The notes below the pieces were generated by a model that worked only from the letters and a program-made list of their open reading frames with translations, did no database searches and was not told the origin of the DNA. DNA of 64,000 bases from Owenia fusiformis. Its lineage: Eukaryota; Annelida; Polychaeta; Sabellida; Oweniidae. The DNA is taken from the NCBI GenBank assembly GCA_903813345.2, contig CAIIXF020000012.1, positions 1,777,318-1,841,317 of the forward strand, written 5' to 3'. Of the stretch, positions 7,494 to 44,400 are shown in pieces (position 1 is the stretch's first letter; every line of letters begins with the position of its first letter). Both the position numbers and the translations under genes were made by a program.

Positions 7494-8392
7494 GCGATAA
7501 TGAACTGGATGAATACTACACTATTTCTGACCACCGCACATCAGCAAAAGTGTTTGGATCTCTTGCAATTTTCATACTAATTGCACTGATAGGGATAATA
7601 GTCATAAGTGACATCGTGACGGCCAGGAAGCACGTGAAACGCTTAGGCTGTATGACGAACATCAGGAACGCAAGGAGGATGACTGCGAGGGAACTGTGTT
7701 ACTCATGCTGGTGTGCCAATGATAGACGTGTCAAAGTTAAAACAACAAAACGAGGTCCTAAACTTAGTTTCATTCTTAGCAAATATAGAGAGCGTCTTGG
7801 TTCAAAAGAGGGTGATTTGACGTGTGACAAGATGTTCATTATAATAGTAAAGGTGTTTTATGCAGAACTAAGGCAGATGTGCTGTGCGGTCAACAAGGTT
7901 GGTGTTATTCCAGGTCTTGATGATTTAGATAAACTAGAGACGGCAATCACGGCAGCCATTAACAAAGATACAGCAGATGTTGTTCCAAGTACATCAGGTA
8001 TTGGACCAAGTACATCAGATGTTGTTCCAAGTACATCAGGAATTGAACCAAGTACATCAGGTATTGGACCGAGTACATCAGTTCCAAGTACATCAGATGG
8101 TGGTCCAAGTACATCAGATGTTGTTCCAAGTACATCAGGAATTGAACCAAGTACATCAGGTATTGGACCAAGTACATCAGTTCCAAGTACATCAGATGGT
8201 GTTCCAAGTACATCCAATGTTTTTCCATGTACATCCAATGTTTTCCCATGTATATCAGGAGAGTTTCCAAGTGCATCAGATGTTTTTCCAAGTACACCAG
8301 ATGTTTTTCCAACTACATCAGATGATGTTCCAAATGCACCAGATGTAGATCCAAGTACATCAGGCATGTCAGGTGTTGTTCCAAGTACATAA
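7494..8392 (+). CDS. Last exon of a single-pass membrane protein with a PSTS repeat tail
   Basis: A splice acceptor (TTTGCAG) ends at 7493. The exon enters in phase 1 and is open to a TAA at 8390-8392. It begins DNELDEYYTISDHR, then has one clear membrane helix (about VFGSLAIFILIALIGIIVIS) followed by a basic stop-transfer stretch (RKHVKR), consistent with an outside-in type I protein. The cytoplasmic part holds several cysteines (CYSCWC, CDK, CC), then about 18 copies of a 7-residue unit of the form D-V-V-P-S-T-S. I do not recognise the family. The GTG at 7550 is only an internal Val codon. Earlier exons lie upstream and were not found. The repeat continues after the stop, so the tail may be truncated. 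Confidence 0.7.
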
Positions 8393-8655
8393 GATATTGT
8401 TCCAAGCAAATCGGATGGCGGTTCAAGTACATAAGATGTTACTGGTCCAAGTACATCTAATGTTCTTCCATGTATATGGGGGGGGGGGGGGAGTTCCAAG
8501 TACATCAGATGTTTTTCCAACTACATCATATGTTGTTCAAACTGCCCCAGATCTTGGACTAAGTACAACAGATATTGGACCAAGTACACCAGATGTTGTT
8601 CCAGATATATCAGATATTCCTTCCAGTATATCAGATGTAGCCCATTGTTCAACAT
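7967..8655 (+). repeat. 21-bp minisatellite, coding then past the stop
   Basis: The unit GATGTTGTTCCAAGTACATCA is 21 bp, a multiple of three, so several frames on both strands remain open. It encodes the PSTS tail up to 8392. It then continues to about 8655, interrupted by two TCA-to-TAA changes (8390 and about 8432) and a run of 14 G (8478-8491), after which another frame runs on to a TGA at 8658-8660. Confidence 0.85.
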
Positions 8656-12077: not shown

Positions 12078-15058
12078 CTAGGTCGACATTGCAGAATTTA
12101 CTTCTTTGATGACTTTCTCAGGTTCTGGAAACTTGAGTTTTCTTGGAGGTCCCTTTTTCAAGCCACTCCAGACACTTACTTCTAGAAAATAAACAAAAAT
12201 AGTGTTGTTGCGAGAATGACAAGACACCAAGTGTTTTCTTTATCATGTTAGTTGATGGAGTATTGATTTGTTTCGGTGTTTCAAAGACATAACAACACAT
12301 GGAAACATGTCGAACAATGAATTCCAATGCCAAACACAGATGGATGGCACCATAACAAAACATTTGGAATGTCAATCCATTTTCCATGACCCATAAATGA
12401 AGGAAACTTGACCTAGAAATTGAATTAAAGGAATAAGAAGATAGATAAAGTGTAAACTGTTGGAATAAATTGTTTCAAAAATCCTGCAAATGTTTCATTT
12501 CCAATCCCGATTTTATTTTGAGAAAAGAAAATTGAGATATCTGATCATGGGCTTTCAACTATGAAAGCCCATGATCTGATGAAGTATATAGACTTCTTAA
12601 AATGTCCAAATTTATTAGAACTGAAAAAGGGGACATCCCCTAATTTTTTGAAAGAAAAGGATTGTCCCAAAAAAAGCAAAACCGTTAATTTTTAAAAAAA
12701 ATATGGTTAAAATGTCAATAATGAAAGCAGAAATATTGTTATTTCTTTTAAACTTACTCTTAACTCATCTTTTGAGTTTAATCAGTAATAGAAACACTGC
12801 CTGCACCATCTATTCATGATCAAATACATTTCAGCATTTACAGATTTAGCAGTGCCTGATTTTTTGCACTTATCATTTAATAGTGATTACACACAATATG
12901 CTTACAATATTTACTAAACACAAAAATACTGCTGTTTAAATGTCAGTATTGGGTAAAAATAATGATATTCTATTACTTATTTAAAAATGGACATTACAGA
13001 AATTTCAGATTTTTAGAGTAATTTTTTCTACTGAGGGACAACTGAAGCTAGATCATTGATCTGTAGTCCATAGCTATTTAAAATTAATCTATTATTGTTT
13101 TCCAAGATCTACTAATGTCATTATCTTGTTCTCCTCACCAGCGCCATCCTCTTTAACTATCACACATTCAAAGCTCTTGCTTCTTGGCTTCTCCGTGTTG
13201 ATGTTGATAAGGATGTCACCAAACTCCAAGCGCAATGCATCAGACAAAGCTGCAGCATTGCGCCCATACACGCGTCAAGATTTGCTGAAAAAATAGTTTG
13301 TACATTAATCAGTACAGGAGGGAAAAAATACACATACAAAGTCACCGTAGAATGAAGATGGGAAAGATGAAGGCTGTAGTTACCAAGATGGAAATGATGA
13401 AGACAAAAACATTTAAAGGATGATGATAAGAAGATCTAAGAAGTTAAAGATGAAGGTGAGTAGAATGAAGGTAAGAAAGATGTTGATGTGAAGGATGAAT
13501 ATGGGAATAATGAATATGAAAAAGAGAAGGGTGAAGATGTGATATAAGATGAGAATGATTATGGTGAGACGAAGGATGAAAAAAATGATAAAGATGATCT
13601 GGGAAAAATTGTAATGTTGAATGTGAAAAAGATAAAGAAAAGAGTGATGAATGTGAGAAGGATGACAATGAGAAAGATGAAGATGAAAAGGAGAAGGTGG
13701 AAGATAAAGGTGAGATGGGTAAAGATGAGAAGGAGCAAGATGAAGATGGGAATGATGAAGGTTGGAATTATGAAGATGGAAACATTTAAAGGATGATGGT
13801 AAGAAGATCTAAGAAGTTAAAGATGAAGTTGAGCAGAATGAAGGTAAGAAAGATGTTGATGTGACGGATGAATATGGGAATAATGAATGTGAAATGGAGA
13901 AGGATGGAGATGTGGAAGATGAAGGTGAGAATGAAAAAGGGAATGGTGAAGGTGAGAATGATGAGTAAAAGAAAGAGGAGGGTGATAAGGAAGAACAAGG
14001 GAATGATGACGGTGAGAAGTATAGGGATTAGAAATATGAATGTGAAAGGCTGATGGTGTGACAGATGAAGGTGAGAAGGATGTGGAAATGGAAAAAAATG
14101 AATGTGATATAAGAAGAGAATGATTATGGTGAGACGAAGGATGAAAAGAATGATATTAAAAGGTGATCAGGGAAAATTGTAATGTTGAATGTGAAAAAGA
14201 TAAAGAAAGGAGTGATGAATGTGAGGAGGATGAAGATGAGAAACATGAAGGTGAGAAACATGAAGGTATGGGAGGTAAAGGTGAGAAGGATGACAATGAG
14301 AAGGATGAAGATGAAAAGGAGAAGGTGTGGAAGATAAAGGTGAGACAGGTGAAGATGAGAAAGAGCAAAATGAAGATGGGAATGATGAAGATGAGAAGGT
14401 TCACGGGCTTTTATTGAAGATGAAAAGGATGACTGTGATATGGAAGACTATGGGAATGATGAAGGTGATAAGGAAGAAGATGAGAAGGATGAATGAGTGG
14501 ATGATGACAGTGAGAAGGAGCAAGATGAAGATGGGAATGATGAAGATGAGAAAGTTCATGGGCTTTTATTGAAGATGAAAAGGATGACTGTGATATGGAA
14601 GACTATGGGAATGATGAAGGTGATAAGGAAGAAGATGAGAAGGATGAATGAGTGCGGGATGATGACGGTGAGAAGGAGCAAGATGAAGATGGGAATGATG
14701 AAGATGAGAAAGTTCATGGGCTTTTATTGAAGATGAAAAGGATGACGGTGATATGGAAGACGATGGGAATGATGAAGGTGATAAGGATGAAGATGAGAAG
14801 GAGCAAGATGAAGATGGGAAGGATGAAGGTATGAAATATAAAGGTAAGAGCATAGGCCAAGGGTAAAGTAATAGTAAGCTGTTTGGTTTGAAACGGTCTT
14901 TACCAATGCTCGATCTTGACGCTAAACTTTGCTTTCCCGGGAAATTTCTTTGCTTTCTTTGGGGAAGTCGATCCTGACTCCTCTTTTTCTTCGATTTGTT
15001 TTTCTGAAGTTTTATCTGCTTTAGCATCTGCCACTTTTCTCTTTTGCTTTGGAGCCAT
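12078..15058 (-). CDS. SELENOH: Selenoprotein H, three exons, TGA-encoded Sec
   Basis: Coding exons on the minus strand are 14904-15058, 13139-13284 and 12078-12181 (405 nt, 134 residues), with intact GT/AG borders and matching phases 2 and 1. Exon 1 starts MAPKQKRK and is Lys-rich, like the nuclear-targeting N terminus of the family, and ends KIEHC across the splice. Exon 2 opens CKS-TGA-RVYGRNAAALSDA: the CxxU redox motif, with TGA at 13275-13277 as Sec55. Exon 3 carries WSGLKKGPPRKLKFPEPEK, the diagnostic C-terminal block. SELENOH is a thioredoxin-fold nucleolar redox protein linked to oxidative-stress and DNA-damage responses. Exon 1 read alone appears to stop after IEHW, because that codon crosses the donor. 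Intron 1 holds a long CATCTTC-rich array. It sits head-to-head with STN1. Confidence 0.95.
13370..14850. repeat. Purine-rich GATGAAGATGAGAAG array in SELENOH intron 1
   Basis: About 1.5 kb of almost pure purine on the plus strand, made of GATGAAGAT/GAGAAGGAT-like words. Higher-order copies are visible: a 155-157 bp unit occurs three times (GGGCTTTTATTG at about 14405, 14561 and 14717), and larger blocks repeat at about 372 bp (13422 and 13794) and 565 bp (13541 and 14106). In SELENOH sense orientation it is a pyrimidine tract. The acidic/Lys-rich frames seen on either strand are by-products of the repeat. Confidence 0.85.
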
Positions 15059-15635
15059 CTTACTTATGCTTCGAATCAGTCCCAAGAGATGTTCTTTCTT
15101 CCTGTGCCCAAAGGCAGCACGATGTACTTGGGGTCCGAATGTCGTAAATAAAGATAATTGGACCGTCATAAAGTCGCGGTAAGTTTTAAAAGTTAAAAAC
15201 TTTACTAAAAGTTCCTAAGGAACAATTTCACGACTGTTACTATTATTATGCTAACCTGAAACAGGTTCCATGTTATACTTACTCCTTGTTTGTTATTTTC
15301 AGTTTCAAATAAGACGTTTCTGTGTCCATAAACATCGATTATCGGGAAATATTCACATATTATCGCCCACCTACAATTTATTTAATTTGACAAATTCAAA
15401 TACAAATTCTAATATCATATGAATTAAACTATTGTGTTTCTAGATGGCTTTCTATCAATACAGTATGAGTCAATGCCATTTGGATCTGACATCCAGGTAT
15501 ATAGTAGGGTACAGCAGACAGTTTTGATAATGGCAAACTCCTACACATCCATAGGACATACATGTATTTACATGTAACTGTTGAATCCTGATGAGCAGAA
15601 TGGAAGCTTCTCATGTACTATTATGATACATGAAG
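15059..15635. promoter_or_regulatory. Shared divergent promoter region, SELENOH/STN1
   Basis: The two start codons lie 577 bp apart, back to back, so both promoters and 5' UTRs must fit here unless there are upstream non-coding exons. No TATA box at a useful position was noticed. This is an inference from layout. Confidence 0.5.
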
Positions 15636-18600
15636 ATGGCAGTTCAATATCCTATCTACCCTGAGGAGTATTGGGGACTTGACCCACTATTTAGAACACC
15701 TGTGAAATTATACATCAAACATGTTTTAGAGATGCCCGAGTCACCAGCTGCAGGTATAGTGTTGTACTGTTGTACAGTAAAGCCTGTCTAAATTGACCAG
15801 CCAAAAGCCTTTCAAGTTTCTTTAATAAGTCAGTGGGATCATTACAAAATTGTGACAGCATATATGAGAAAGTGTCCACATTGAAGGGTGTTTGGATTTG
15901 AGTTGGGTAGAATGTACAGCTTTTACCATAGTGTTTAAAGTATAGCAAGTCATGTTTTAGCCACTACTTTGTACATGTATATTCTCACTAATAAACATTG
16001 ACGTGACATAAATAATAATACCAATAAAATAATTGTTTGCTAATTACAGGTGTGTTCCTATTCAAGAATCATCCTATAGTTAAGGTGGACATACAAGGAA
16101 CTGTGGTCAGCATTATCGAGAAAACAAAGTTCACATCATATGGAGGTACATGTAACATTAGTCTATTAGCCCTTTAATTGCAATGTGGGATTAGAATTGT
16201 GGGGAGCTTATATCTTCTCAAGAACTTGCTATATAGCGGTGTAATAGTTATAGATAAAGGTGGTGACATGCTCTTGTGAGATTTCTATGTAATGACACTT
16301 CTTCTTAGTGTTTTGAGCTATCGACCTTGGGGAAGATGGTCTTGATCACTACTATAGCGGTGTCTATTAACGATAGATTTCTTATTTCATTTATTCACCT
16401 ATTCAACATGTTTTAAATTATAATTGTTTGCATTTATACTACACTTTTATGTATTTCAACTATTGTAACTCTCTATTAATTAGAGGTAAATAAATATACA
16501 ATACAACAATTAGTACCACAAAGTTCCATAAAAGGAGTACAACGAGTATATCTGAATTTATCACACCTTTTATTTAACAGTCTTCCCAATTTGACCAGAC
16601 CATCCTATTTAGTAGAAAACCAATGTGTTCCTTTAACCATTAAAATAATATATTTGACATCATAAACCAATGTTTTTGGCCCTCTAAACCTGATCTTACA
16701 TTACTAGTCCTTATAAGGTTACCTTAAATTGATAAAATCTCCCCCATACATATCAATAATTCTTTATGTGCTATATTTATCCTCAGGATGGATGTTCATG
16801 TTCATCTTCATATCACCAATTGAATCTTTCAGTGGATGACAGTACAGGAGTTATCAACTGTTGCTGTTGGAATAATGCAGATGACATTACTGATTTAGAC
16901 ACTTCAGGTACATCACTAATATAACATTATTCAGACAGTTTTTAAGGAAGTCAGCTGGTCATAATTTGAGTTGAAATATTTTTTTTCTGTTAAACCCTCA
17001 TGTATATCTTTATCGTAAATATACAAACAGGCCAATGTTACATCGCACAATCACACTTTAATCTCACTCAGTAAAACTTCACATCCCACAAATTATACAT
17101 GCTAGAAAAAAACATTAAAAATTGATCAAGCTTGTAACGTAGCTGCCTTATTTTAATAAGTTTAAATCTGAGCACTCTTCTCAGTTATTATATATCTTAA
17201 CAAATACCAGGTACGTTTAAGGGGATAATCTCAATATGAAAAAGTCTTCAGTACATGTTTATTTTCAGATCCCCTGAGCAACATTCTGAGGGATTCCCTA
17301 CGTGATATACCTGGTATTTCTAACGTCAAGTTAGGCGACACACTAAATGTGAAAGGAAAATTGAAAGTGTTCAGGGACAGGAGAGAGATCAGCTCCTCTG
17401 ATTCACAATGCTGTATCCTTTTAACAATCTTGGTTGTATAAATTCTATGATTTATAGCGATTTCTTTGTGTCTGCAATGTTGCCCTTTGTGTTTTCATAA
17501 TCAGTTTAATTTGTAAATGTTGACCATGTCTGCATTTAAATAGATTTACCAACAAATGAGAATACAAATGGGGATATCAATCAATGTAAGAGATTAAACT
17601 TGTCAGTGATTATCATTTATCAGTTGTGGGTTTTTATTTCATATTTGTCCACAACTTATATTTTTCTTTATTTTTATTTCTTACATAAGAGGTATATTAA
17701 GTGGAACACCTTTGGTACCGTACCTCTAGAGTTCCACTCACTAGATGTTCCACATGTTTATTCAACATTGAGTCAGTTGGTCTTTGGACTCTGAAAAATG
17801 CTCCACTGACAGAGGTGTTCCACTTTACAGGTTTCACTGTAAACTAAGAAATTCTCCATCTAAAATGTCACTCGACTTTTTTGTGATTATGAGTCAAAGA
17901 AAGCATTCTTGAGTTTCAAATTGACTTCTGTGGTAACTTGAAACCATCTTCTAATTTATTCCACTTACCTTTTATTGTTTCTTCAAATATATTCTTTGAA
18001 AATCGGATTTTAAGGGTGTTAATCAGGGTAATTCTGTGCCATTTTATCAAAAATCTTGTTGCTATCTAGAAACGAGCAATTGTGATCTTGTTGTTACCTA
18101 GGAACGAGTAACTGTGATGTCACGTCACACTCATGTTAATTCTGGAATCACATGGCAGCCATTTTGGAAATATCAAAAAGTTCCCAATTAAAAAGGCTAA
18201 ATGCTGTTTACAAATTGGAAAACTATGGCAGAATCAACAAAGGGTTAGTGAAGATGGTTTCAAAATTATGCACATGACAATGTATGACTACTAAATGCAG
18301 GCAGGGACTTTTAATTGCCAAAAAGTCGAGTGACATTTTAGATGGAGAAATTCTTAGTATCTAAAAAGTCATATATCAATCTTTAACACATAAATAAGAT
18401 AAAGTACTAAGCTTTGATGAGGAGATCACAAGGATGCTAGAGCTCCCTCTATTGTACAAAGATGTATACCATGTGCCATTTAGGCTACCAGAACGTGTTA
18501 AAGAAGACTGGGAACAGATGCAGCTTGAGGGAGAGACAGGGGTCAAGAGCAATGTAAGTGCAATTATTGAATTAATTACATTTGACATAATTTAATGGTG

Positions 18601-21600
18601 ATCAACTTATAATGTATCTTTAAATATACATGTACTGTCTATGATAACCTTGCCCAAGTCAGTCTCTTTTACGTTATCTTGATTCCCATAGCACAGTCTG
18701 TATAGGGTACCTTATCATGTCACCAACAAGATATAGTTACAGTGTCTGTAACAGTTATAACACTTTTGTAACAAGTGCAAGTGGTAAAGTATTAGTACCA
18801 GGAAATAGAGATAAAAAAGTAAAAGAGAACAATCTAGTAGCAATGTTATCTATTTGATTATTTTCCCTTTATTGACACATCTTCGGGGTAAGCAAGAACT
18901 TAGATGCCCAATCAGATAATTAATTTTAATTTAGCATGGATAAGTTAGATATGAGATGGCCTTGGTTGACCTTTTCATGTTAAATTACCAAAATGGAACT
19001 CTTAATGAATATTTTAAATGCTACATATATTGTATACTTCAGCAAACTTTGGCTAAGGAGATCAGTGTAGCTGTCAAGTGTCACATATCTTGAATGCAAC
19101 ATATATTGTATACTTCAGCAAACTTTGGCTAAGGAGATCAGTGTAGCTGTCAAGTGTCACATATCTTGAATGCAACATATATTGTATACTTCAGCAAACT
19201 TTGGCTAAGGAGATCAGTGTAGCTGTCAAGTGTCACATATCTTGAATGCAACATATATTGTATACTTCAGCAAACTTTGGCTAAGGAGATCAGTGTAGCT
19301 GTCAAGTGTCACATATCTTGAATGCAACATATATTGTATACTTCAGCAAACTTTGGCTAAGGAGATCAGTGTAGCTGTCAAGTGTCACATATCTTAAATG
19401 CAACATATATTGTATACTTCAGCAAACCCTGGCTTAGGAGATAAGTGTAGCTGTCAAGTGTCACATATATCTTAAATGCAACATATTGTATACTTCAGCA
19501 AACCCTGGCTTAGGAGATAAGTGTAGCTATCAAGTGTCACATATCTTAAATGCAACATATTGTATACTTCAGCAATCAAACTTTGGCTAAGGAGATCAGT
19601 GTAGCTGTCAAGTGTCACATATCTTAAATGCAACATATTATATACTTCAGCAAACTTTGGCTAAGGAGATCAGTGTAGCTGTCAAGTGTCACATATCTTA
19701 AATGCAACATATTGTATACTTCAGCAAACCCTGGCTAAGGAGATAAGTGTAGCTGTCAAGTGTCACATATCTTAAATGCAACATATTGTATACTTCAGCA
19801 AACCCTGGCTAAGGAGATCAGTGTAGCTGTCAAGTGTCACATATCTTAAATGCAACATATTGTTTACATCAGCAAACCCTGGCTAAGGAGATCAGTGTAG
19901 CTGTCAAGTGTCACATATCTTAAATGCAACATATTGTATACTTCAGCAAACTTTGGCTAAGGAGATCAGTGTAGCTGTCAATTGTCACATATCTTAAATG
20001 CAACATATATTGTATACTTCAGCAAACTTTGGCTAAGGAGATCAGTGTAACTGTCAAGTATCACATATCTTAAATGCAACATATATTGTTTACTTCAGCA
20101 AACTTTGGCTAAGGAGATCAGTTTAGCTGTCAAGTATCACATATCTTAAATGTAACATATTGTATACTTCAGAAAACCCTGGCTAAGGAGATAAGTGTAG
20201 CTGTCAAGTGTCACATATCTTAAATGCAACATATATTGTATACTTCAGCAAACTTTGGCTAAGGAGATCAGTGTAGCTGTCAAGTGTCACATATCTTAAA
20301 TGCAACATATTGTATACTTCAGCAAACCCTGGCTAAGGAGATAAGTGTAGCTGTCAAGTGTCACATATCTTAAATGCAACATATTGTATACTTCAGCAAA
20401 CTTTGGCTAAGGAGATTAGTGTAGTTGTCAAGTGTCACATATCTTAAATGCAACATATTGCATACTTCAGCAAACCTTGGCTAAGGAGATTAGTGTAGCT
20501 GTCAAGTGGCATATATCCCAAGGACCTGTGAAGTACCTTCACATAGATGACATCCATAACATTGGAGCCATCAAGCAGATTTTAGAAATGGTAGAGACAT
20601 CAGCAGATGAGGTTTGTGTGTGTGCAATATTCTTTGTTTCTAAAGTAACAGGTTTATGCGTGATATTAAAATGTTCAATCAGAATCTGATGTCTGCTTGT
20701 CAAATTTTTATGGAACAAGATTGATGATGGCTTATTAAGCCATTTTTGAACAAAATGGTGTTTTAAAACAATTTTTTTGTATAATTTAGTATATAGAGAT
20801 TATCCTATATGAGGTTCAGGATATTGGGATTATCCCGAGGCCAATATAATATATCTGCCCGAGGGCCGTAGGTCCCGAGGGTAGATATATTATATTGGCA
20901 AAGGGATAACCCCAATATTCGAACCGACTATAGGATGATCTGTTTATCCCATACCAATCACATTGTTCAATTGGCCAAAGTTCAGAAACTTTGCAACCAA
21001 CCGTGGAATTATTTTAAAATATTCATGTCCAGTTTTGTATTCTTGTCCGTAGCCGTATTTTCCTGTTCAAATCTTTGATTATTAACGGGGTAAGCTCCTT
21101 CCCTTCTTTTAAGCATCAAACAGATCGCGATTGTCTGCTATTTTCTCCATTGTCGTTTTCAGTATGCGAACGTTACAAAAAAGAACCAATACGGGAACAG
21201 CGATTATGACGTAGCGGGCAGATATACTATATCTGCCCGCTCGGAGCGGGACGTAAAGCTATATCTGCCCGCTGATGAAAATATAAGTTTTTACAAACCG
21301 GCTTTATGTACCCGTAACACGTCCAAGTATGGGATAAAACTTTTTATATAAGATCTCAATAACATTGAGTAAGACTTTATGTATTATACTAGAAGTCAAA
21401 TCAGTTCAACATGTCCTTGAGGCCTTTTGGTGAAATCTCAATTTTGCATAAGCAATTTACTAGTATTTCTGATAAGAATTTAGCAAACTGCATCTTTTTT
21501 ATTGTGCCTCATTTATTTATCAAAAATAAGATTCATACATCTGATGTATTCATGATTTTGCTGTTTTAGACATCACACACTAATAACCTGGTGGAGAAGG

Positions 21601-24159
21601 CCATCAGTCTACTGGAAGAAGAAGGTCTTCTTTTCAAAATGGGAGGCCAGAGGGCTACAAGTATGCAGGTCAGTCAGTGTGGGTTTATGTTGGGGCCATG
21701 CACTCGTCAAATAAAAATACAGTGTACAACACTACAACAGTCACATAAGCATTTAGTCATGTATCTCATTTCTCTGGAGATGGATTCCTCTCAATTGGCC
21801 AGAGATGAAACTTTGTGATGGCCGTCTGCAGATTACTAGCGGTTGGTTCTTCACCTTTTGGTCCATTGGTTTCTGCAGAAATATTGCTTCAATACTAGGG
21901 TTGTTAAATAAATACCGAAAAGTAAAAATGGCTCGTGGGTACCCTCATTGACAATGTATATTTGATGAAACTTTAAAAGAACTAAGAAAATATTCATAAG
22001 AAAATATGCTTTAATCCATACAAAACCATTTTGAATAGACTAGATGCGAGGAGAGATGGGGAGATATAAAATCACAAAAAGTTAAATATCTTTTCTTGTA
22101 TTGGACAAATAACATTTTCTTTTACTAGACATATTTTAATTTGCATAACTTTTAGATAAATAGGGGTGATATGAAAATTGAACCACTAAAACAGATGAAT
22201 ATTTAGTTAAAGTGAACTTTCTACTATACTCGCCATGCTATCTGACCTGAACGAGCCATCTGGTGGTGAAACTGGTAACTACATACTCGATCTGAGTCCT
22301 TAAATTTGATTAATCTATTGCAAAAAGTACTAGTATGAAATCAGATTAATTATGTTTATGTAGCTAAACTGTCTGAGTGTTCTATAATTGTAGGTGACAG
22401 ATAATTGTTCGGATTTGGGTGTAACCATCATTGAGACACTGAGACGACAATGCTCCAAGCCTAGGTGTAAGTTGTCAACTCTCATAATTATACTACACTC
22501 TATACAGACTGTGCTATACAAAAACAAGTGGTGCGGATATCATGTGCGCAAGGTACGGATATTAACGGTCATTTTTGAATTTGATTTCATGATATTTAAC
22601 CAACTTAGGCATGTTGGGTACTCACACATGTGTATTGTGTAAAGGTTCCCTAATAAAAAGGAAATTGTATTAATAGATGTGTTAAGTATCATTCTATAAG
22701 CGACGCATCAAGCAATAATACTCTCTCCAAAGCAAATAATTTGAAATTGCAGCTTTTTCACAACGTAAACAGCATTCATTCAATATTGGTGATCGAGATG
22801 ACTTATCAATACAAATTATTTTTGCATTTTGAAAGTTGAAAGGTTTCTGTGTGATTTTATACAAAGTGGGAAAAATTAAACAAAAATGTACAACGTCTAT
22901 ATAAGCGGATCACCCTTGGATATCCGTAAAATGACAATATCCACACCGCTTATTTAGAGGTAGCACATATCCGATAAATGTTTTCAATTTTTTAAAAATT
23001 CACATACTAGAAAGTTTATGACTTTCAAAATCCAAAAATATTTTTATTGATTGGTCATCTAGATCACCAATACTGAATGAAGGCTGTAAACTGTAATAAA
23101 GCAGCAATTTCAAATTCTTTGCTATGGAGCAAGGATGAATGCTTAGTGCGTCGTTAAAGAATGAAGAATACAACTATAGACAAAATCTCCCTTTTATTAG
23201 GTATCCTCTTAATGCCTTTAAGTTCATGAAATATCACAAATTCAAATTCAAAAATGACCGTTAATATCCGCACCTTGCGCACATGACATCCGCACCGCTT
23301 GATTTCCTATACCACAGTCTGTATAGGGTACCCTATCACTATGTCACCAACAAGATATAGTCACATATAGTTATATAGTAACAGTGTCTGTAACAATTGT
23401 AACACTTTTGTAACAAGTGCAAGTGCTAACGTATTAGTACCATCAAATAGAAATATAAAAGTAAACAATAAAAGAACAATCTAGTAGCATTCAAGTACAT
23501 AAATGAAGGTGGTGACACTTTTTAACATTCCTGCCTTAAACATTAAAACATCATTTCTAAGAATATACTCAAATAACATTAAACCTCTGTAATCAATCCC
23601 TACATGTACATGTACCTCACCTATGACCAGTTAATTCTATGCATGTTTTACTGATGTAATTCCATTTATGCTATGCACTGTAGTTTTAGGGAGATAAGAT
23701 GGTAAGATATATCCTGCACCCTGATTTTGCCGTTTCCATATCCAGAACCTCAATTTCTTCAAGATATCTTCCCACTTCTGGTAATTTCACTTTAACTGTG
23801 GTGTGAAACTGTACTGGGTTTAGGATAAAGCAGTTATATATGGTTGATTTTAAAATGGGGTAAATCCTTCATTAGATATGCATATCTACCTTGATTCCCT
23901 TTGTTCCTCATTTAGATATGCATATCTCCCTCTGGGTAAACCCCATATCCAAAAAGACCCAGTACATAACCCTTAATGTTATATATGTGTTTTAGATGAG
24001 GAAACTGGACTTCACTTCCTACGCATCTTGGATGAGCTTCACAAGACTGTAACATACAACAAGCTGACATTACATGCTCTAAAGAGATGCCTTTCTAAGC
24101 TAGAGGACAATAGCGATATTATAAGAGTGACAGAGACACATTATGTTGCTTATACTTAG
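15636..24159 (+). CDS. STN1: CST complex subunit STN1, nine exons
   Basis: Coding exons: 15636-15753, 16050-16145, 16833-16907, 17269-17412, 18399-18553, 20471-20611, 21570-21668, 22394-22466 and 23996-24159 (1065 nt, 354 residues; human about 368). Every junction is GT/AG with consistent phase. Landmarks in order: EEYWGLDPLF at the N terminus, GVFLFKNHPIVKVDIQGTVV and VDDSTGVINCCCW of the OB fold, YKV then ITRMLELPLLYKDVYHVPF, then the C-terminal winged-helix region (AISLLEEEGLLF; GLHFLRILDEL) ending VTETHYVAYT. STN1 binds single-stranded telomeric DNA with CTC1 and TEN1 and recruits polymerase alpha-primase. The ATG at 15636 has the better context (A at -3, G at +4); one at 15630 would add two residues. 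Exon 5 has a weak acceptor (no pyrimidine tract). Exon 6 is preceded by 19 partial copies of its own 5' border. Confidence 0.95.
17843..18358. mobile_element. Inverted-repeat element in STN1 intron 4
   Basis: ACTAAGAAATTCTCCATCTA with about 20 further matching bases (to GTCACTCGACTTTTT) at the left is repeated in inverse at 18320-18358. It has no coding content. Its right end lies 40 bp from the exon 5 acceptor. Confidence 0.65.
18680..18835. repeat. Dispersed repeat, copy in STN1 intron 5
   Basis: CACAGTCTGTATAGGGTACC and the following 130 bases recur with small changes at 23313-23490 in intron 8 of the same gene. The other copy begins exactly at the end of the inverted-repeat element 22500-23326, so this may be a transposon end plus flank, or a related longer element. 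Confidence 0.6.
19021..20470 (+). repeat. Minisatellite of 19 exon 6 acceptor-border copies
   Basis: Units of 74-78 bp each contain the intron end (TTGTATACTTCAG) and about 40 bases of the start of exon 6 (CAAACTTTGGCTAAGGAGAT and on to GTCAAGTG), then a spacer. CAG or equivalent acceptors end at 19042, 19118, 19194, 19270, 19346, 19422, 19498, 19572, 19650, 19724, 19798, 19872, 19946, 20022, 20098, 20172, 20248, 20322 and 20396. The twentieth, at 20470, is the real exon 6 acceptor. In the exon frame each upstream copy meets TGA or TAA soon after CACATATCT, so use of a decoy with readthrough would truncate STN1. The first five spacers carry TTGAATG and later ones TTAAATG. Confidence 0.95.
20799..20940. 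repeat. Long hairpin in STN1 intron 6
   Basis: GATTATCCTATATGAGGTTC and following bases pair with the inverse ending TATAGGATGATC. The centre holds a second palindrome, CCAATATAATATATCTGCCC with its complement. A further palindrome of the same ATCTGCCCG words lies at 21214-21276. Together they suggest a foldback transposon of about 550 bp with unclear borders. Confidence 0.6.
22500..23326. mobile_element. Long-TIR element in STN1 intron 8
   Basis: The left end CTATACAGACTGTGCTATAC is matched in inverse by the right end (GTATAGGAAATC... complement ending CACAGTCTGTATAG). Similarity continues for roughly 100 bases, including GTGCGGATATCATGTGCGCA. It is 827 bp with no transposase frame. It starts 33 bp after the exon 8 donor. 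Confidence 0.75.
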
Positions 24160-24525
24160 TGACATTGCACTAATAGACACATTATGTCACTTATATATAA
24201 GTGTCATAAGATTTGATTATGTCACTTATACTTAGTGACATCAGATTAACAGAGACGCATTATGTTGTTTATACCTGGTATCATCAGAGTAACAGACACG
24301 TTATGTTGATTATAATGACGTTCCTCAAAGAAATTATAATGACATCTCTCAAAGAAACAGACACGTTATGTTGATTATAATGACATCTCTCAAAGAAACA
24401 GACACGTTATGTTAATTATAATGACATCTCTCAAAGAAACAGACACGTTATGTTGATTATAATGACATCTTTCAAAGAAACAGACACACTATGTTGCATA
24501 AACCTAGTGAGATGAGACAACATTA
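24118..24525 (+). repeat. Tandem repeat after the STN1 stop resembling its last codons
   Basis: The last coding bases of STN1 (GTGACAGAGACACATTATGT, then TGCTTATACTTAGTGACAT) recur in degraded form three to four times after the stop. They then give way to about four cleaner units of roughly 41 bp (CAGACACGTTATGTTGATTA then TAATGACATCTCTCAAAGAA) between 24291 and 24485. The array probably lies in the 3' UTR. Confidence 0.75.
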
Positions 24526-27326: not shown

Positions 27327-28611
27327 CTATGCTTCACTTTCGACAGCTGGTTTAGTTACAGGCACATTTTCCGATGTTACAGAGTTATTCTGTTGGGTCA
27401 CATTGGTATTTCCACTGCTTTCATTGTTCACATTCGGTTCCTTGATTTCATTGACTTCCGCTATCACATTCAGGGTTGTTTTTGAAATTGGAAGACGTTC
27501 ACTTTTCTTAAAGTTTATTTTATGTTTGGTGAGTAAGTTTTGTAAGGTCTCTATTTCTAGCTCCTGCTCAGAGCAATAAGTGCGAAATTTGGCAAGTTCC
27601 TGCTCAACAGCTTCCCGGGCTTGTTTCTCACGATTGAGTCGCTTTTCTGCTTGCGTCTTCACAGACAAAATAATACCTGGAATGGTGAAATACACATATA
27701 TGATGAGTTGGAAGTTTTATTGCAAGCCAAATATGTCGAATTTTCTAGAACTATTTTGTGGATTAAGTAATAAGGCAATTTCCATTTAGGACAGTGAGTA
27801 ACTTTATTAGAATATCAAAAATATATCTTGATAATTGATAATAACAATGTTCACGAGAATAGTAAAACATTCATTAAATGAACTTCAATACACAGACAAA
27901 GTAAGGTAGAAAAAAGTTACTTAAATTGATTCAAATGCATACACTTATTAAGATATAAAAATGAAGAGTACACATAGTGATGCTTATTAATTCTATTCAA
28001 AATTAAATAACAAGTTCCCAATATTCCAGACATTAATATTAATACTTAATCTTACCATTTAATATTCTGGTCACTCGCCAGAGCCTCAACAAAATCAGCA
28101 GTCCGATTCCGCCAGATACGGCCTCATTACCAATAAACGCAATATCCAGTGCAAACGATACAATGACCACAACTGCGTCAAACACCTCCATCTTGTGCTT
28201 GAAGAAATCAAGTCCCATGGCATACACTTTAACAATGATCTCAATCATGAACAAGCTTAGGATAGCGATACTGAGGAAATGCAGCACCTCTGCTACAACG
28301 CTTACTGTCGGGTGACGTTTTGTCACTGATGTCCCCCCTCCCTCTTCACCCTCTCCTCCTCCAGAGCGGATTTGATGATCGAAAACTCCAAGGTCAATTA
28401 ACAGCTCTGATATGACAAGCAAACAGTCAATAATCACGAGAATAATAATCGTTATTTGAAACTTGTTGCCGTGTATGATATACCTCAACTTCTCCCTGCA
28501 TGTCAACGCAGGTTTGTTGTCTTCAGAGTCTGTTGTTATGGTGCTCGTCGTGTCAGATTCAATGATCCTATCAAGATCATCCCCGACCTTCTTAAAGCCA
28601 TCCATTCTCAT
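27327..28611 (-). CDS. HVCN1: Voltage-gated proton channel Hv1, two coding exons
   Basis: Exons on the minus strand are 28056-28611 and 27327-27676 (906 nt, 301 residues; human 273). The first contains the whole voltage-sensor domain: S1 with the selectivity Asp (D62, human D112), S2 with H111, F121 and E124, S3 with D145 and D156, and S4 RLWRVTRILNG with three Arg (176, 179, 182). The second encodes the S4 extension (IILSVKTQAEKRLNREKQ), a coiled coil that should dimerise the channel, and a polar tail. Hv1 conducts protons out of cells and has no separate pore domain. The ATG at 28611 directly follows a splice acceptor (CTTCCAG), so a 5' non-coding exon is likely; another N-terminal exon cannot be ruled out. 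The S1-S2 loop is long (Gly/Glu-rich), and the second zinc-site His (human H193) is Ala. Confidence 0.93.
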
Positions 28612-29632
28612 CTGGAAGTACATAAAGAGTGTAAAGATTTGTTGTCAGCCAAATAAATAAATAAAACATAAGTTTTTTACCATGCCAAAAGGAAAATATG
28701 TGTGAGTACATTCTGTACATGAGTTTCTTATTGAAACAAGCGACTCCTTGTGACAATTCTTTCTCGGAAAACACAAAGAATATCTAAAACATGTAGATGT
28801 GCAGTAATGCATGTCATGTATTAATCTCAAGTGGGAGGGGCCTCTGTGAGGTTTTAGAAGCTCCATCCCTAAATTTCACCCTTTTAAAAAATTAGACCCA
28901 ACTTTTGAATACTTACCTAATATTGGAAACAATCTATGATCTCTGCTACTCAGTAAATACACAGTACATGTCTAATATGTCATAAGTCTTACAGATCATT
29001 CAAGTTCAATCCTTTGCACACATTTTTCTATATATAGAAGTGTGTGTATTATACAAAAGATCTGTATCCAAATTTACGCCCCCTTTAAGTCGTACACATA
29101 GGTTATAACAAAGACCAAAGTCTATGTCAAGAATACAAGGTCAGGAAGTTTGCTGAATCAATTGTCTCAAGTTACAGATAAGATACAAGTTCAAAACAAA
29201 GACAAAACTAGGTCAATTTGAGTATTTGATAAATTCAACTTCAGAAGAGTTTTTCTAGCTCTTGTCATAGAGGAAACATAAAAACAGTGTGAAAATACTT
29301 ACTTTGTATATCTGTACGTATGTAGACACATATACAGTGTAATATGAAGACCAGTTTGCCCTAAATAATAGAGTTTTAAAAGTTGTTTTTTGTTTGTAAG
29401 TTTGTTTACTAAAATGCTCAGTTCTCGTGCACTTTGACACAAAGACTTTGGTCACGTGACAATTCAATATATCTCATTTTACACCTCTCCTAGTGGTCCA
29501 TGCATGCCTATAATCCATCAAACAATTGTCATTCATAGACTCATAATGATGTATGTGTTGTTTAGATATTTGGGTGCTCAATGATATGAAAAATGTTGAA
29601 CGAGATGTTTGGAGATTTTGTACGATTTCAAG
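28612..29632. promoter_or_regulatory. Divergent promoter region, HVCN1/PRKRIP1
   Basis: HVCN1 runs left and PRKRIP1 right from this 1-kb interval. It probably holds a non-coding first exon of HVCN1, since its start codon follows a splice acceptor. No core promoter element was identified. Confidence 0.4.
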
Positions 29633-38479: not shown

Positions 38480-41400
38480 TTAAAAATGTCCATTGTTCTC
38501 CATGAAGTACCTTGCGTATACTCCAAGTAATCCTGTAGCCAATCCAGACTCGTGGGACAAGCAACCATCTATAATGTAAAATACATGGTTATCAGAAACA
38601 GGAGTGCTTTGGTGTTTGGGTGCGAGTGATGAAATTCCCTTGAAACTTCAAAAAATCATGCATGTACCTTGTTCTTACCCAGAGACATCGTAATATAGTT
38701 TCTAGTTAATGAAATGAAGTAGCGTATTAAAAAGTAAGCCACTAAAACAATGGAAAAGTCCTTTTCTACCACATACTGTTTCGATTGGATGATTCTTGTG
38801 ACGTCATGTCGTTGATGGATGTCATATTAAATGCGACATTTTTGCATATACATTTACTTTAAAATACAGAATACTGGTATAGTAATTGTTGAAATAATTA
38901 TTATTGTTATTATTATTATAGGCATGGTTACGCTCAATACATCAGTTTAGTGCAAATCTACCCTCAAACGTCAAGTTTTGAAAGCGAGGCAGATGCATGC
39001 AGGGGCGTAGGAAGGTGTCAATTCAACACTACGCAAATAAATATCAGAAAATTGTGTCAAATTTTCTACCTATATCAGAACACCTAGTACTATTTTATGC
39101 TTGTAAAATGTTATTTTTATTATAATCTATTCTTATAATGTTCTTTAAATGTTCAAATGTTTTTCATTATTTATAATCACGATGGAAAGCCGATCTTTGA
39201 TATGATTTAAAGAAAATGTCAAATATGTAACACGATATAACGCAGGTTTGCGAAATGAAATTCAGGTAACAGATTTCATTTGGAACGGTAGAGTGTCCTA
39301 AAATTCATAATAATCGGAAATTGAACATACGTGAGGAATAGCTGACATGAATTCCAGCCATGTTGTTATATATCCGAATTTATTGACATTAGAATTCTAC
39401 ATCGCCACAGACCTCGGAGTAGTCAGAAAAATACAACAATTTATGTAACATGTTGATAACATTTACACTAGTTCTCTACTTAATAGCATTGTTATTATTG
39501 AATTATTTCAGCATTTTGGTACATTAGAAAATACGATCCATCATATTTATTCAATTAACGTTTTTAGGCGATGTGGAATTCTAATGTCAACAAATTCGGA
39601 AATATAAAAACTATGGCCTTTTAATTAGTGCACTTAAAAGAAGTAAAATCAACCAAGCCTTATATATATTTCCCTCAGGTCATGAATTAAAAATATGACT
39701 GAAGAAAGTTGGGAAATTATTAAGGCTGCATTTTTGTACATGCTTTTTGACCGCAAGCATGATTTTAATCCTAAAATTAGCTAGATTGTGCTTATACCAC
39801 AATACCATGTTCAAAATACCACTGTGTAGAAAATTTGAATATTACACAACCGTATTTTCACTTGCACCGCGGTCGTAGGAAAATGCAACCTAAGCCTTTT
39901 TCAACACTACGCATTTTTTCGCGTACATTGTTCCTACGACACTGCATGTGTTCGACAAGAGATTGCATCTTTCTGATGAACTACGAATTCGAGTATTAAA
40001 GGAGATATACTAATATTTGATATCAAGGGCTTAGTAATACTGATTCATTGTCAGGCTGATCAAATATTTCATTAAAGCACTTTAAAATGCCACGTTGCAG
40101 GTGAAACGATCACAATTTATCTCGATCGAGTTCCTCGGGGCTTTCTACATTTTCAGTGGCGCTAATCACGGCATATGAAAAATGATCTCATTAATTTTGC
40201 GTTACGCAATTGCGTAGGTATTTTAGATTACTCTCTCGATGTCGTTCACATAACTATTCCACGTATCGCTACCATTTTTGTGTGGGGTTGTCCCAAAAGA
40301 GCTCGTTATCGTACGTCAAAAGATTTGTTTCGGGAATGTTTTTTGGGGTTTGAAAATCCAAAACTGTTTCAGAAAGGGACTTAATCATTTGTAATTATTA
40401 TGTCAAATCTCTCTCTACTCACCAAACAGAACTTTACGTTACCCTCAAGCTTTCTCTCTACTCACCAAGCAGAACTTTACGTTACCTTCAAGCTTTCTCT
40501 CTACTCACCAAAAATAACTTTACGTTACCTTTAAGCTTTCTCTCTACTCACCAAACAGAACTTTACGTTACCTTCAAGCTTTCTCTCTACTCATCAAACA
40601 GAACTTAACGTTACATTCAAGCTTCTCTCTACACACCAAGCAGAACTTTACGTTACCTTCAAGCTTTCTCTCTACTCATCAAACAGAACTTAACGTTACA
40701 TTCAAGCTTCTCTCTACACACCAAGCAGAACTTTACGTTACCTTCAAGCTTTCTCTCTACTCATCAAACAGAACTTAACGTTACATTCAAGCTTCTCTCT
40801 ACACACCAAGCAGACCTTTACGTAACCTTCAAGCTTTCTCTCTACTCATCAAACAGAACTTAACGTTACATTCAAGCTTCTCTCTACACACCAAGCAGAA
40901 CTTTACGTTACCTTCAAGCTTTCACTCTACTCACCAAGCAGAACTTTACGTTACTTTCAAGCTTTCTCTCTACTCACCAAGCAGAACTTTACGTTACCTT
41001 TAAGCTTTCTCTCTCCCCACCAAACAAAACTTTACGTTACCTTCAAGCTTTCTCTCTACTCACCAAGCAGAACTCTGCGTTACCTTTAAGCTTTTTCTCT
41101 ACTCACCAAACAAAACTTTATGTTACCTTCAAGCTTTCTCTCTACTCACCAAGCAGAACTTTACGTTACCTTCAAGCTTTCTCTCTACTAGCAAGCAGAA
41201 CTTTAAGTTACCTTCAAGCTTTCTCTTTACTCACCAAACAGAACTTTACGTTACCTTCAAGCTTTCTCTCTACTCACCAAACAGAACTTTACGTTACCTT
41301 CAAGCTTTCTCTCTACTAGCAAGCGTCTCCCAGTTGATGGATGGTTTGCCTTGAAACAGCCCGAATCATCCTGCCAGGAAAGTATAATGTCCAACCAGTC

Positions 41401-44400
41401 TTGCCTCAGGAAGTCTGTGAATCCAATCAATCCACAGAGCACACCTTTATTGAAACAAGAACATGTTGAGACTGTTGCACTTATTTTACCAAGTCTTACA
41501 TTTAAAGAGATGCTTGCGTAAAAATAGGTTTGTATTACATATTATGTTAGTATTAGTGTTTATCATTAGCTGGTAGCTCACGGTCTTTAATTAAAATGTT
41601 GGAATTACTTTTTTTATAAATGTACATGTGCACGTAGAATATTTTTTTAACGCTGTTTTGCAAAGTGAGCGGGCAATTTTCTTAACATGTATAGAATATT
41701 GCAAACATCATATATGTCAGTGTGAAAGAAAATATTTCAAATTCTCAAAACCAGGAAGATTTCCAGATGCCATCGTAAGTATTGCAAAACTAACAACTAA
41801 ATTATCCTGGCCTGTAATAGTTATTTTGTTGTAATCAACGTGAAATAGTAAAATAACAATATTCAGGAGCATAACTATATTTGGGAAACGTCCCCCGGTG
41901 CTATCACTAACGCAGTAAGATAAATTAGATTAAGCAGCAGGGTACAACGACATCAACCAAATCAGGAAACAAATAATATTTTCCGACAATAAATCACACC
42001 CACATCACGTACCTTGCTCAACGAACAGATCTCGGTCACTGATTTCCACATGGTTATTGTTGACTAAAGATGTCGCTTCTGCATATATTTTGCTGCATTG
42101 TTTCACCTCAAACTTGTCAAATTTTTCGGCTTGTCCCACTTTTGCGATGACGCTACTTTTACAACCAACCTAGAAATAATCGTATGATTGATAAGTCTGT
42201 GTTAATACACCTGTATTCTCAACCCCCAAGTTTTTCATGAGCACTTCATGTGATTGAGGGTCAAAATTGTCAAATTTGAACCCCTCCTTGATTTCTTACA
42301 ATCTGAGCCAACCTCCATTGCAAAAACAGCAAGGTCACACACCGGAATAGTCTGACAACGGTAAAATCAGACATCGTTGTCACAAATGGCGGACATAACC
42401 GTCACTTCAATTAGATTTTTATGAACTGAATGTTTAATAGAGCACCTAAACTAAATTCCTTTGGAACAACAATCAATCAAAGTGTCTTAATACTCATTGT
42501 ACAGTTAATAATGTTCTACCATCCAAATAAAGTCTTTAATTTAACCGATCAAAATGAGATACGGGAAAACGGACACGGTAAATTACCATATGCCGTTGTC
42601 TTTCTAAATTACTCAAATTCAGATTCCGTTGTCATTGACGATATCGAAGACGCTATATTGTGTCGATTCACGACCCAATTTGATCGAAATTGGGATTCCG
42701 TTTGAAGCATCATCACATGCACTGAAATAACGACGATAAAATCCCATGAAATGAGGACCAAGGGATTAAACAGTCGAAGTGACGGTTATGTCCGCCATTT
42801 GTGACAACGGTGTCTGATTTTACCGTTGTTAGGCTATTCCGGTGTGTGACCTTGCTGTTTTTGCAATGGAGGTTGGCTCAGCTTTTAAGAAATCAAGGAG
42901 GGGTTCAAATTTGACAATTTTGACCCTCAATCAAAGGTGTTGTTTTGGCACCAAAATTGTGTCATTTCGGCCACCGTAGTGTTTTTGCTCGTTTTGCACC
43001 AGGTCAAGGGCTTTCACTCACATTGAAATGCCTTTTGAAAAAAAACTAGAAGAAAAATATCTACTCAATTATGTCACTTAAAATCCCATCGTCTTGTTCC
43101 GAGTTCCATGCTGTTCGCTTATATGATTATGAGTTTTTAATGAAAAGTACGGCGCTGTATCTCTCATTAAAGAGAGATGATGTTGCGAGTGTTTTTTGAT
43201 CCAACCACACTTTTAGTTTACAAAAACTATTGTGGGCCTCTCCAAAATACCCTGTCTGAGTTAAAACTATAAAGTATATCTTTTTGTGGGGGAGGGGTTC
43301 CTTTCTCATGTCGGTGTTGGAAAGACTGTAATGTAAGTTGACATGAAATATTCTAATTGGGGACCTTATCCGACCCGAATCAAATCAAATTAGTAATTTC
43401 AATCTTTCATCCCGATAGCTGTATGAGGATCCTGTTATAATCAGTACTGTCAACATTTCCCGAGGAAATCGAGATCTGCAAGCTGGGTGTATAAACCTGT
43501 GAACCTATAATGCAAATTGACGAGTCGTTGTTACCATTGTAAAATGAAGTATACTTTCTTAGTCTATTTCGTGCGAGGACAATTAATGATAAGTTGACTT
43601 TTTACATTTTCTTGTCGGGTACTATCTAAGAAAATGATGTATTGAATTATCTGATTGGATCCTATCCTTAAATTCACTACACTCAGCTTTGGCATTGTGG
43701 GATCCACAGCCTTTACTATCCTTTTGGAATAGTTCTCTCAAAAGCGTTAGGTAAAGAGGGACTCTGATGAATCAGAATGCAGCTTTGGGATTTTAGAATT
43801 ACACGTATGCTTGCATGCTACAGGGTGCTTCAAAAGAACCCTGTAACAAAAATTGCAAGCTATATGTACATCTCAGTGATTACCCACATAATGAGCTTAT
43901 GTTCTTATATGTTTTAAAGGAAGGTCGAGCGTTTTATTGGTATAATATTAGAGTCACTCAATCCTTATACTCCTTTCTATGATGACTGCGCCAGGGTGTC
44001 TCCGGGTTACCGGGACTTTAAGAAATTTCAAGTGTTGCGTTTTTAGACCACCCTGTACGTGAGACTATGATGTATGCTAAATGAGACAAAATACATCGAG
44101 AAGTTAAAGGATTAGAATGGTGAAAGAGTACAAAATATAGGAAGCGATATTTTCAAAATCATTCCAATGTTTTCTTCACAGTCCTAGTTTACTGAAAAAA
44201 ACGAATTGAGATCACCGATCAAATATCGATCTGAGATGCAAACATGTACAAATTGCTAGATTACCGTGAAATCGAAGGATTAACCTGGCATAAACACAGA
44301 ACTATCGGGGTTTTAGTAATACGCTTAACTTAGAAAGACAAGCGCAAAAAATATTGCAAAATTGTAATTACAAACCATATAGTTCGTTTTAAAATCTGAT

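Follow-up and report, generated by a model that had tools for sequence, protein, structure and literature searches.

How does a cell find the start of an exon that is preceded by nineteen near-identical copies of its own splice acceptor? The question is raised by a minisatellite in intron 5 of the STN1 gene of the polychaete annelid Owenia fusiformis, found in a window (the whole stretch of DNA analysed here) of 64,000 nucleotides of contig CAIIXF020000012.1, read on the forward strand (C12:1777318-1841317 in the coordinates used below), from an assembly of 498,259,871 bases. The array is very probably a "mirage" of the kind described in lancelets, a tolerated intronic minisatellite of which the last acceptor is used, with no function of its own indicated.

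An acceptor-border array in STN1

The STN1 identity of the gene is secure. Nine coding exons give a spliced protein of 356 residues that matches the Pfam family STN1_2 (4.3e-20) and, over residues 11-355, human STN1 in the PDB (1.5e-49), which bears out the name given in an initial annotation made from the sequence alone. The features of the gene and of its array are as follows.

15630..24159, plus strand: STN1 gene, nine coding exons, from the spliced translation (356 residues) with its Pfam, PDB and P0001 matches
15630-15753, 16050-16145, 16833-16907, 17269-17412 and 18399-18553, plus strand: STN1 exons 1-5, from the spliced translation
19009..20517, plus strand: acceptor-border minisatellite in intron 5, 19 decoy units with the real border as the 20th, from Tandem Repeats Finder (TRF)
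19011..19042, plus strand: first decoy, the intron tail of unit 1 with its AG, from units in register
20365..20396, plus strand: last decoy, the intron tail of unit 19 with its AG, from units in register
20439..20470, plus strand: tail of intron 5 with the real acceptor AG and, as no more than a loose match to the consensus, a putative branch site (A at -24/-25)
20471-20611, plus strand: STN1 exon 6, phase 0, 141 nt
21570-21668, 22394-22466 and 23996-24159, plus strand: STN1 exons 7-9, from the spliced translation

Arrays were detected with TRF, which reports this one with a period of 74, 20.1 copies, 94% matches and a score of 2480. Twenty AGs stand in register, 74-78 nt apart, from 19042 to the real acceptor AG at 20470, and each unit consists of roughly 24-28 nt of intron end followed by the start of exon 6. 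The anatomy first proposed, in which the unit is the intron 5/exon 6 border and the real exon is the twentieth and last copy after 19 decoys, is confirmed by TRF and by the register; the exon portion of each unit is likewise real, although it measures about 50 nt rather than the 40 or so first given. Units 2-4 are identical over the stretch compared, while the outer parts of units 1 and 20 differ from the others, so that the inner copies appear homogenised and the edges do not. The unit 16 decoy reads CAG/AAA (the slash marks the splice border), in place of the CAG/CAA seen elsewhere. A repeat carried by a transposon would be expected to have dispersed copies; when a two-unit query was run against the 498 Mb assembly, with very common words skipped and only the best candidates scored, all ten matches fell inside the STN1 array, a result that speaks against this origin.

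That the array is an artefact of assembly or annotation, with a wrong unit number or a collapse, is barely plausible. Tandem arrays are hard to assemble and the first units are nearly identical, but substitutions and indels are scattered among the remaining units, the length is 1.5 kb, and arrays of the same kind recur at other loci. The published Owenia genome, which may be the present assembly, was built with long reads (PMC9977687).

In the phase of the exon (phase 0), 19 of 19 decoys run into a stop within 17 codons (after 16 codons in 16 of them, after 4 or 5 in the other three), in agreement with the early stop first noted in each copy. The accompanying statement that the spacing is never a multiple of three does not hold: one spacing is 78, and when distances are summed from each of the 19 decoys to the real acceptor, six (1428, 1200, 972, 672, 372 and 222) are divisible by three. 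Since every decoy stops, the frame of the spacing hardly matters. An exon begun at a decoy would be longer and would contain an early stop, and its transcript would probably be removed by nonsense-mediated decay.

Decoys and real site are nearly identical in sequence, so the acceptor as such offers little by which the true site could be told apart. On a crude splice-site matrix the score is 4.3 bits for the real acceptor, 4.1 for 16 of the 19 decoys, 5.9 for one, and 3.1 and 3.4 for the remaining two; a loose branch-site match lies at -24 to -27 in all 20 units. What distinguishes the real acceptor is its downstream context, as it alone leads directly into exon 6, whose donor follows after 141 nt, whereas an exon begun at unit 19 would be 215 nt long and one begun at unit 18 would be 289 nt long. 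Because only the last copy joins the rest of exon 6 and its donor, the spliceosome would be expected to use the last acceptor by exon definition. Among the 109 GTs of the array, the highest donor score on a similarly crude matrix is -1.6 bits, below seven of the eight STN1 donors and above the eighth (-4.9); as a genuine donor is placed lower still, decoys might act as cassette exons or as an intron-gain repeat, with an acceptor and a usable donor in each unit, despite the low score. The AG is kept in 20 of 20 copies, which by estimate rather than computation is expected by chance at so few substitutions, and with so little divergence among the copies this retention is weak evidence of selection on the decoy AGs.

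The equal strength of decoys and real site, on the simple matrix, and the fact that all decoys give early stops after residue 198 could also speak for a second explanation, in which copy number tunes STN1: the decoys would compete with the real site, and a longer array would yield less STN1 or a truncated STN1 holding the N-terminal OB fold without the C-terminal part. This is very unlikely to be the case. When a truncated decoy isoform was sought in a protein database, the only hit was P0001, an Owenia protein, though such an isoform could be concealed by the 90% identity clustering of that database. RNA folding of the last units does not stand out from shuffles (z -0.92, with 36 of 200 shuffles as good) and lends tuning no support; a function through RNA structure was rejected on the same result. 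The alternative raised in the initial annotation, that the cell reliably ignores the decoys, is judged the better reading, in agreement with what is reported for lancelet mirages.

Probable exchange between the array and exon 6

Variation among the copies suggests that they exchange sequence with the coding exon. Within the 48-nt exon part of the units, variants were classed as old if common to at least five decoys or if they separate the decoys from exon 6, and as young if present in one or two decoys. All six old variants are synonymous (T6C, T7C, C21A, C21T, C42T and T48C), while none of the eight young variants is, all being nonsynonymous or nonsense (Fisher p 0.0003). Six of six synonymous changes would arise under random change with a probability of 0.0001-0.0006, depending on transition bias. 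C21T, found in exon 6 and unit 19 only, was classed as old because the two share it. The count omits indels, the Trp/Cys codon in exon 6 itself, and a seeming Ser-Tyr change in unit 6 that stems from an inserted AT; if Trp/Cys is entered as an old nonsynonymous change, the old count becomes six of seven. The simplest reading of this pattern is that older variation passed through the coding exon under selection whereas young decoy variation is unscreened, so that array and exon 6 would exchange sequence while the decoys themselves carry no present coding constraint. Unequal crossing-over or conversion would, over time, trade sequence between the array and the head of the real exon, with selection on that exon as the filter.

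A third explanation gives such exchange a consequence, namely that the array acts as a sequence store from which decoy variants are moved into exon 6, causing recurrent coding changes. It is compatible with a tolerated mirage and the two overlap in probability; on its own it is a possibility to be held tentatively, somewhat short of being favoured. The split between old and young variants is in its favour, as is the published proposal that conversion from a border duplication into the exon took place in human CBS (PMC2630376). A further point comes from the database. The best match of the STN1 model, and the only STN1 match named as Owenia, is P0001, described as "unnamed protein product, partial", 269 residues long and belonging to a cluster of two member sequences. 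It equals the model protein at 268 of 269 residues, and its single difference falls exactly where decoys differ in amino acid from exon 6: at exon 6 codon 13 the exon has TGG, 17 of the 19 decoys have TGT and two have TAT. The Cys of P0001 may, however, be an annotation effect of the array, or could simply be ancestral. It may come from a different allele, from an exon that is ancestral or has been converted, or from a gene prediction that drew in part on a decoy.

P0001 also bears on splice-site choice. It crosses from exon 5 into exon 6 in frame and without a decoy-type stop, which counts for a tolerated mirage and lends tuning by copy number no support, but it does so with one decoy-like residue. 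This residue is among several results that weigh against a tolerated mirage whose last acceptor is used. Residue 202 of P0001 is Cys where residue 211 of the window protein is Trp, and P0001 therefore cannot serve as unambiguous evidence that the last acceptor is used; a single decoy can be joined to exon 6 in 110 ways that yield the P0001 peptide, but no such joint is GT-AG. The matrix that scores the decoys as nearly equal to the real site gives the acceptor of STN1's own exon 5 -8.0 and one of its own donors -4.9. As to exchange, the absence of synonymous changes among the eight young variants has by itself a probability of 0.07-0.14 under random change, and the whole test comprises 14 variants, partly linked; because neighbouring variants are linked, it is only indicative.

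Border arrays elsewhere in the window and the genome

The same geometry is found on the donor side of a C16orf89-like gene in the same window.

40410..41324, minus strand: donor-border minisatellite of the C16orf89-like (DUF4735) gene, 43-bp unit, 21 donors, with the real donor first (GT at 41297-41296)
41298..41415, minus strand: exon part ending at the real donor, with only its 3' edge defined; Pfam DUF4735 2.6e-12 for the containing open reading frame (ORF)
38480..38568, minus strand: last exon of the gene, beyond the array; the join reads RKLE-DGCLSHESGLATGLLG and on to a stop

Joining the first donor to the exon from 38568 down yields a proper C-terminus. DUF4735 matches the joined exons at 3e-32, and the piece joined past the array alone at 5.7e-16, covering profile positions 213-282 of 283. 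Each of the 20 later donors would add GNVKFCLVSREKA and a stop, and this stop precedes the second donor. On the crude donor matrix, 12 of the 20 later donors are at least as strong as the real one, and 11 further TTG/GTGAGT sites are stronger. Unit 4 is identical to the last 27 nt of the exon. Searched against a protein database, the C16orf89-like exons matched a single entry weakly (29% identity) and nothing from Owenia, so that existing annotation gives no help for this gene.

For the genome at large, the assembly was scanned with patterns for three strong donors or three acceptors in tandem, with each pattern read backwards as a control on match counts. The donor pattern gave 514 matches against 204 backwards and the acceptor pattern 294 against 124, counts that are not independent, since matches cluster in arrays, and that for acceptors are inflated by an interspersed family. 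Places were taken from about the first 100 matches listed for each pattern, which cover contig C1 only for donors and C1 to the start of C5 for acceptors.

The donor matches listed group into six loci, all on C1, of which two consist of a pair of clusters separated by 1-2 kb; sequence was retrieved from one end of every locus. In five of the six the array starts at the end of an open exon preceded by an acceptor-like AG; no call was made on the sixth. The exon at the expected end is supported by Pfam in three of the six (Rieske_4 3.4e-8, TUDOR 1.1e-10 and NIF 4.9e-6), and two of the five exons gave no Pfam match. The exon shares 53 bases with later units in L034, up to 18 in L029, 17-18 in L033, 9 in L030 and, counted strictly, 2 in L032, so that L030 and L032 are weak as border copies. 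L034 (C1:45656200-45657100) is a 52-bp donor array ending an NIF/CTD-phosphatase-like exon, and since its units have some 53 nt before the donor in common, they consist largely of exon.

Acceptor matches listed resolve into 22 distinct arrays once the interspersed family is dropped. Short-period arrays at C1:51.06M and C3:6.49M were set aside, the other 20 of the 22 were fetched, one end each, and peptides from ten of these, chosen by eye, were put to Pfam. Two exons passed the cut-offs (zf-H2C2_2 1.7e-13 and Nic96 1.6e-15), at the ends of L046 (C2:33854430-33855060), a C2H2 zinc-finger exon, and L048 (C3:31873600-31874200), a Nup93-like exon; two more matched below cut-off (2OG-FeII_Oxy 0.0023 and ANF_receptor 0.008). 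In these four arrays the last unit has 21-48 nt after the AG in common with its predecessors. L040 and L053 have exon-like ends without Pfam support, no call was made either way on L044, L047, L049, L052 and L054, and in nine of the 20 fetched arrays no exon was seen at the expected end. The interspersed family, with tandem TTTTCCAGGGACAATATGATTTTTCG units at ten places among the acceptor matches listed (on C2, C3 and C4), is probably a mobile element with built-in acceptor-like sites.

Neither array of the window fits these strict patterns, and the class is therefore probably larger than the scans show. There are good signs that the genome holds more border arrays, several of which in one annelid would be an addition to the known cases. 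The recurrence of this geometry, on the donor side and at other loci, counts for reading the STN1 array as a mirage; similar arrays in unrelated genes of one genome point to a mutational rather than an STN1-specific cause, which argues against tuning. A broader proposition holds that border minisatellites form a genome-wide class in Owenia (real border last on the acceptor side and first on the donor side), feeding variants back into coding exons and, in some genes such as STN1, altering by their copy number the share of correct transcript; as a whole this seems unlikely. A preference of minisatellites for borders is not supported by counts. In the 264 kb examined there are 30 arrays; the two that fall on a splice border both belong to the window, one being the STN1 finding itself, and in a 200 kb sample none of 23 arrays was recognised on a splice border by splice-signal scoring, reading of three loci and viewing of translated flanks, with no Pfam scan of those flanks. 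Random placement together with tolerance may be enough.

At L019:2500-2805, a 30-bp array lies about 8 nt into an intron, directly after the donor and with no evident copy of the border. The exon before it is, judging by its peptide, presumably chitin-synthase-like.

Border repeats in other animals and the probable origin of the array

The initial annotation had considered an array built from a functional acceptor border to be unusual. This view has to be given up, as the same structure has been published for lancelet genes, border repeats are known in human CBS, and further arrays occur in the present genome, one of them in the same window. In amphioxus, the mirage of BflGb6 is a tandem duplication of the intron end and the 5' part of exon 2, with units of 150-160 bp, present in 6 and 3 units in two haplotypes, while BflGb9 has a duplicate of the 3' border of exon 2; earlier Adh3 cases with somatic instability are cited there (PMC3087553). 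Mirages have also been listed in Adh, TnC and PGBD5 (PMC3902484). RT-PCR (reverse transcription PCR) suggested normal splicing of the lancelet globin mirages (PMC3087553), and mirages are reported as leaving splicing undisturbed (PMC3087553; PMC3902484), a point for a tolerated mirage and against tuning in STN1. Like these, the STN1 array is a minisatellite whose unit spans a border of a real gene, with the splice signals copied and the genuine border at the edge. It differs in its annelid host, in having 19 extra copies compared with 6 and 3 units in BflGb6, and in its unit of 74-78 bp rather than 150-160; splicing and length polymorphism were tested in amphioxus, whereas the STN1 array is known from the sequence of one assembly.

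Human CBS has two border repeats, a 68-bp duplication (844ins68) and a 31-bp variable number tandem repeat (VNTR) (PMC2630376; PMC5188458). With 844ins68 the distal site is strongly favoured and the mRNA is normal, according to a source that speaks of donor sites yet cites Romano 2002 on 3' splice site selection (PMC2630376); unlike the STN1 case it involves one extra copy, polymorphic in people, and no array. The VNTR (c.1444_1467+7) has 16-21 copies of a unit that spans the exon 13/intron 13 border (PMC2630376; PMC5188458) and works like the C16orf89-like array, differing from STN1 in its donor side, its 31-bp unit and the association of its copy number with enzyme activity. More copies go with lower activity (PMC5188458), and an intronic minisatellite of C. 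elegans shows enrichment close to multiple alternative splicing decisions (PMC4039745), both of which could be taken in favour of tuning; for STN1 itself, regulation by copy number is unsupported. Nearest in host are the metallothionein genes of earthworms, in which fourth-exon duplications are missing from the transcript and intronic repeats are classed as minisatellites, though a unit spanning a splice border is not stated in the parts available (PMC12783039). Repeats at exon-intron boundaries are also reported to have given rise to new introns in human duplicates (PMC2812944). No splice-border array in an annelid was found in the literature searched; most journals lay beyond the reach of this search, and priority is not claimed.

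What STN1 presents is accordingly a known kind of array in an annelid, most likely tolerated rather than used. Its founding event would have been a tandem duplication of a piece of 74-78 bp across the intron 5/exon 6 border, followed by growth to 19 extra copies through slippage or unequal exchange. Such growth would be tolerated because, when a border is duplicated in tandem, an intact copy of it remains outermost (the last acceptor or the first donor) and the extra copies become intron. Border arrays are natural experiments in splice-site choice, with up to twenty near-identical acceptors or donors of which only the outermost is joined to a full exon, and they allow a direct test of exon definition against models in which the first site wins. 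Should mirages prove common both in lancelets and in an annelid, border duplication would be a general product of minisatellite growth in animals, and this, if true, bears on annotation, on conversion of coding exons and on the evolution of introns.

The window holds a third border array, on the coding end of STN1, and other repeats besides.

24129..24520, plus strand: tandem copies of the STN1 coding end including the stop codon (TRF 24216-24300 and 24333-24496)

These repeats extend into the 3' flank, with a best local score of 45, where 500 single-base shuffles reached 26 at most. At 7969-8638 and 13646-14811, long arrays of short repeats appear on visual inspection to code in frame, as PSTS-type and acidic repeats. 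An ORF adjoining STN1 on the minus strand (28039-28644) resembles a voltage-gated proton channel, a tentative name.
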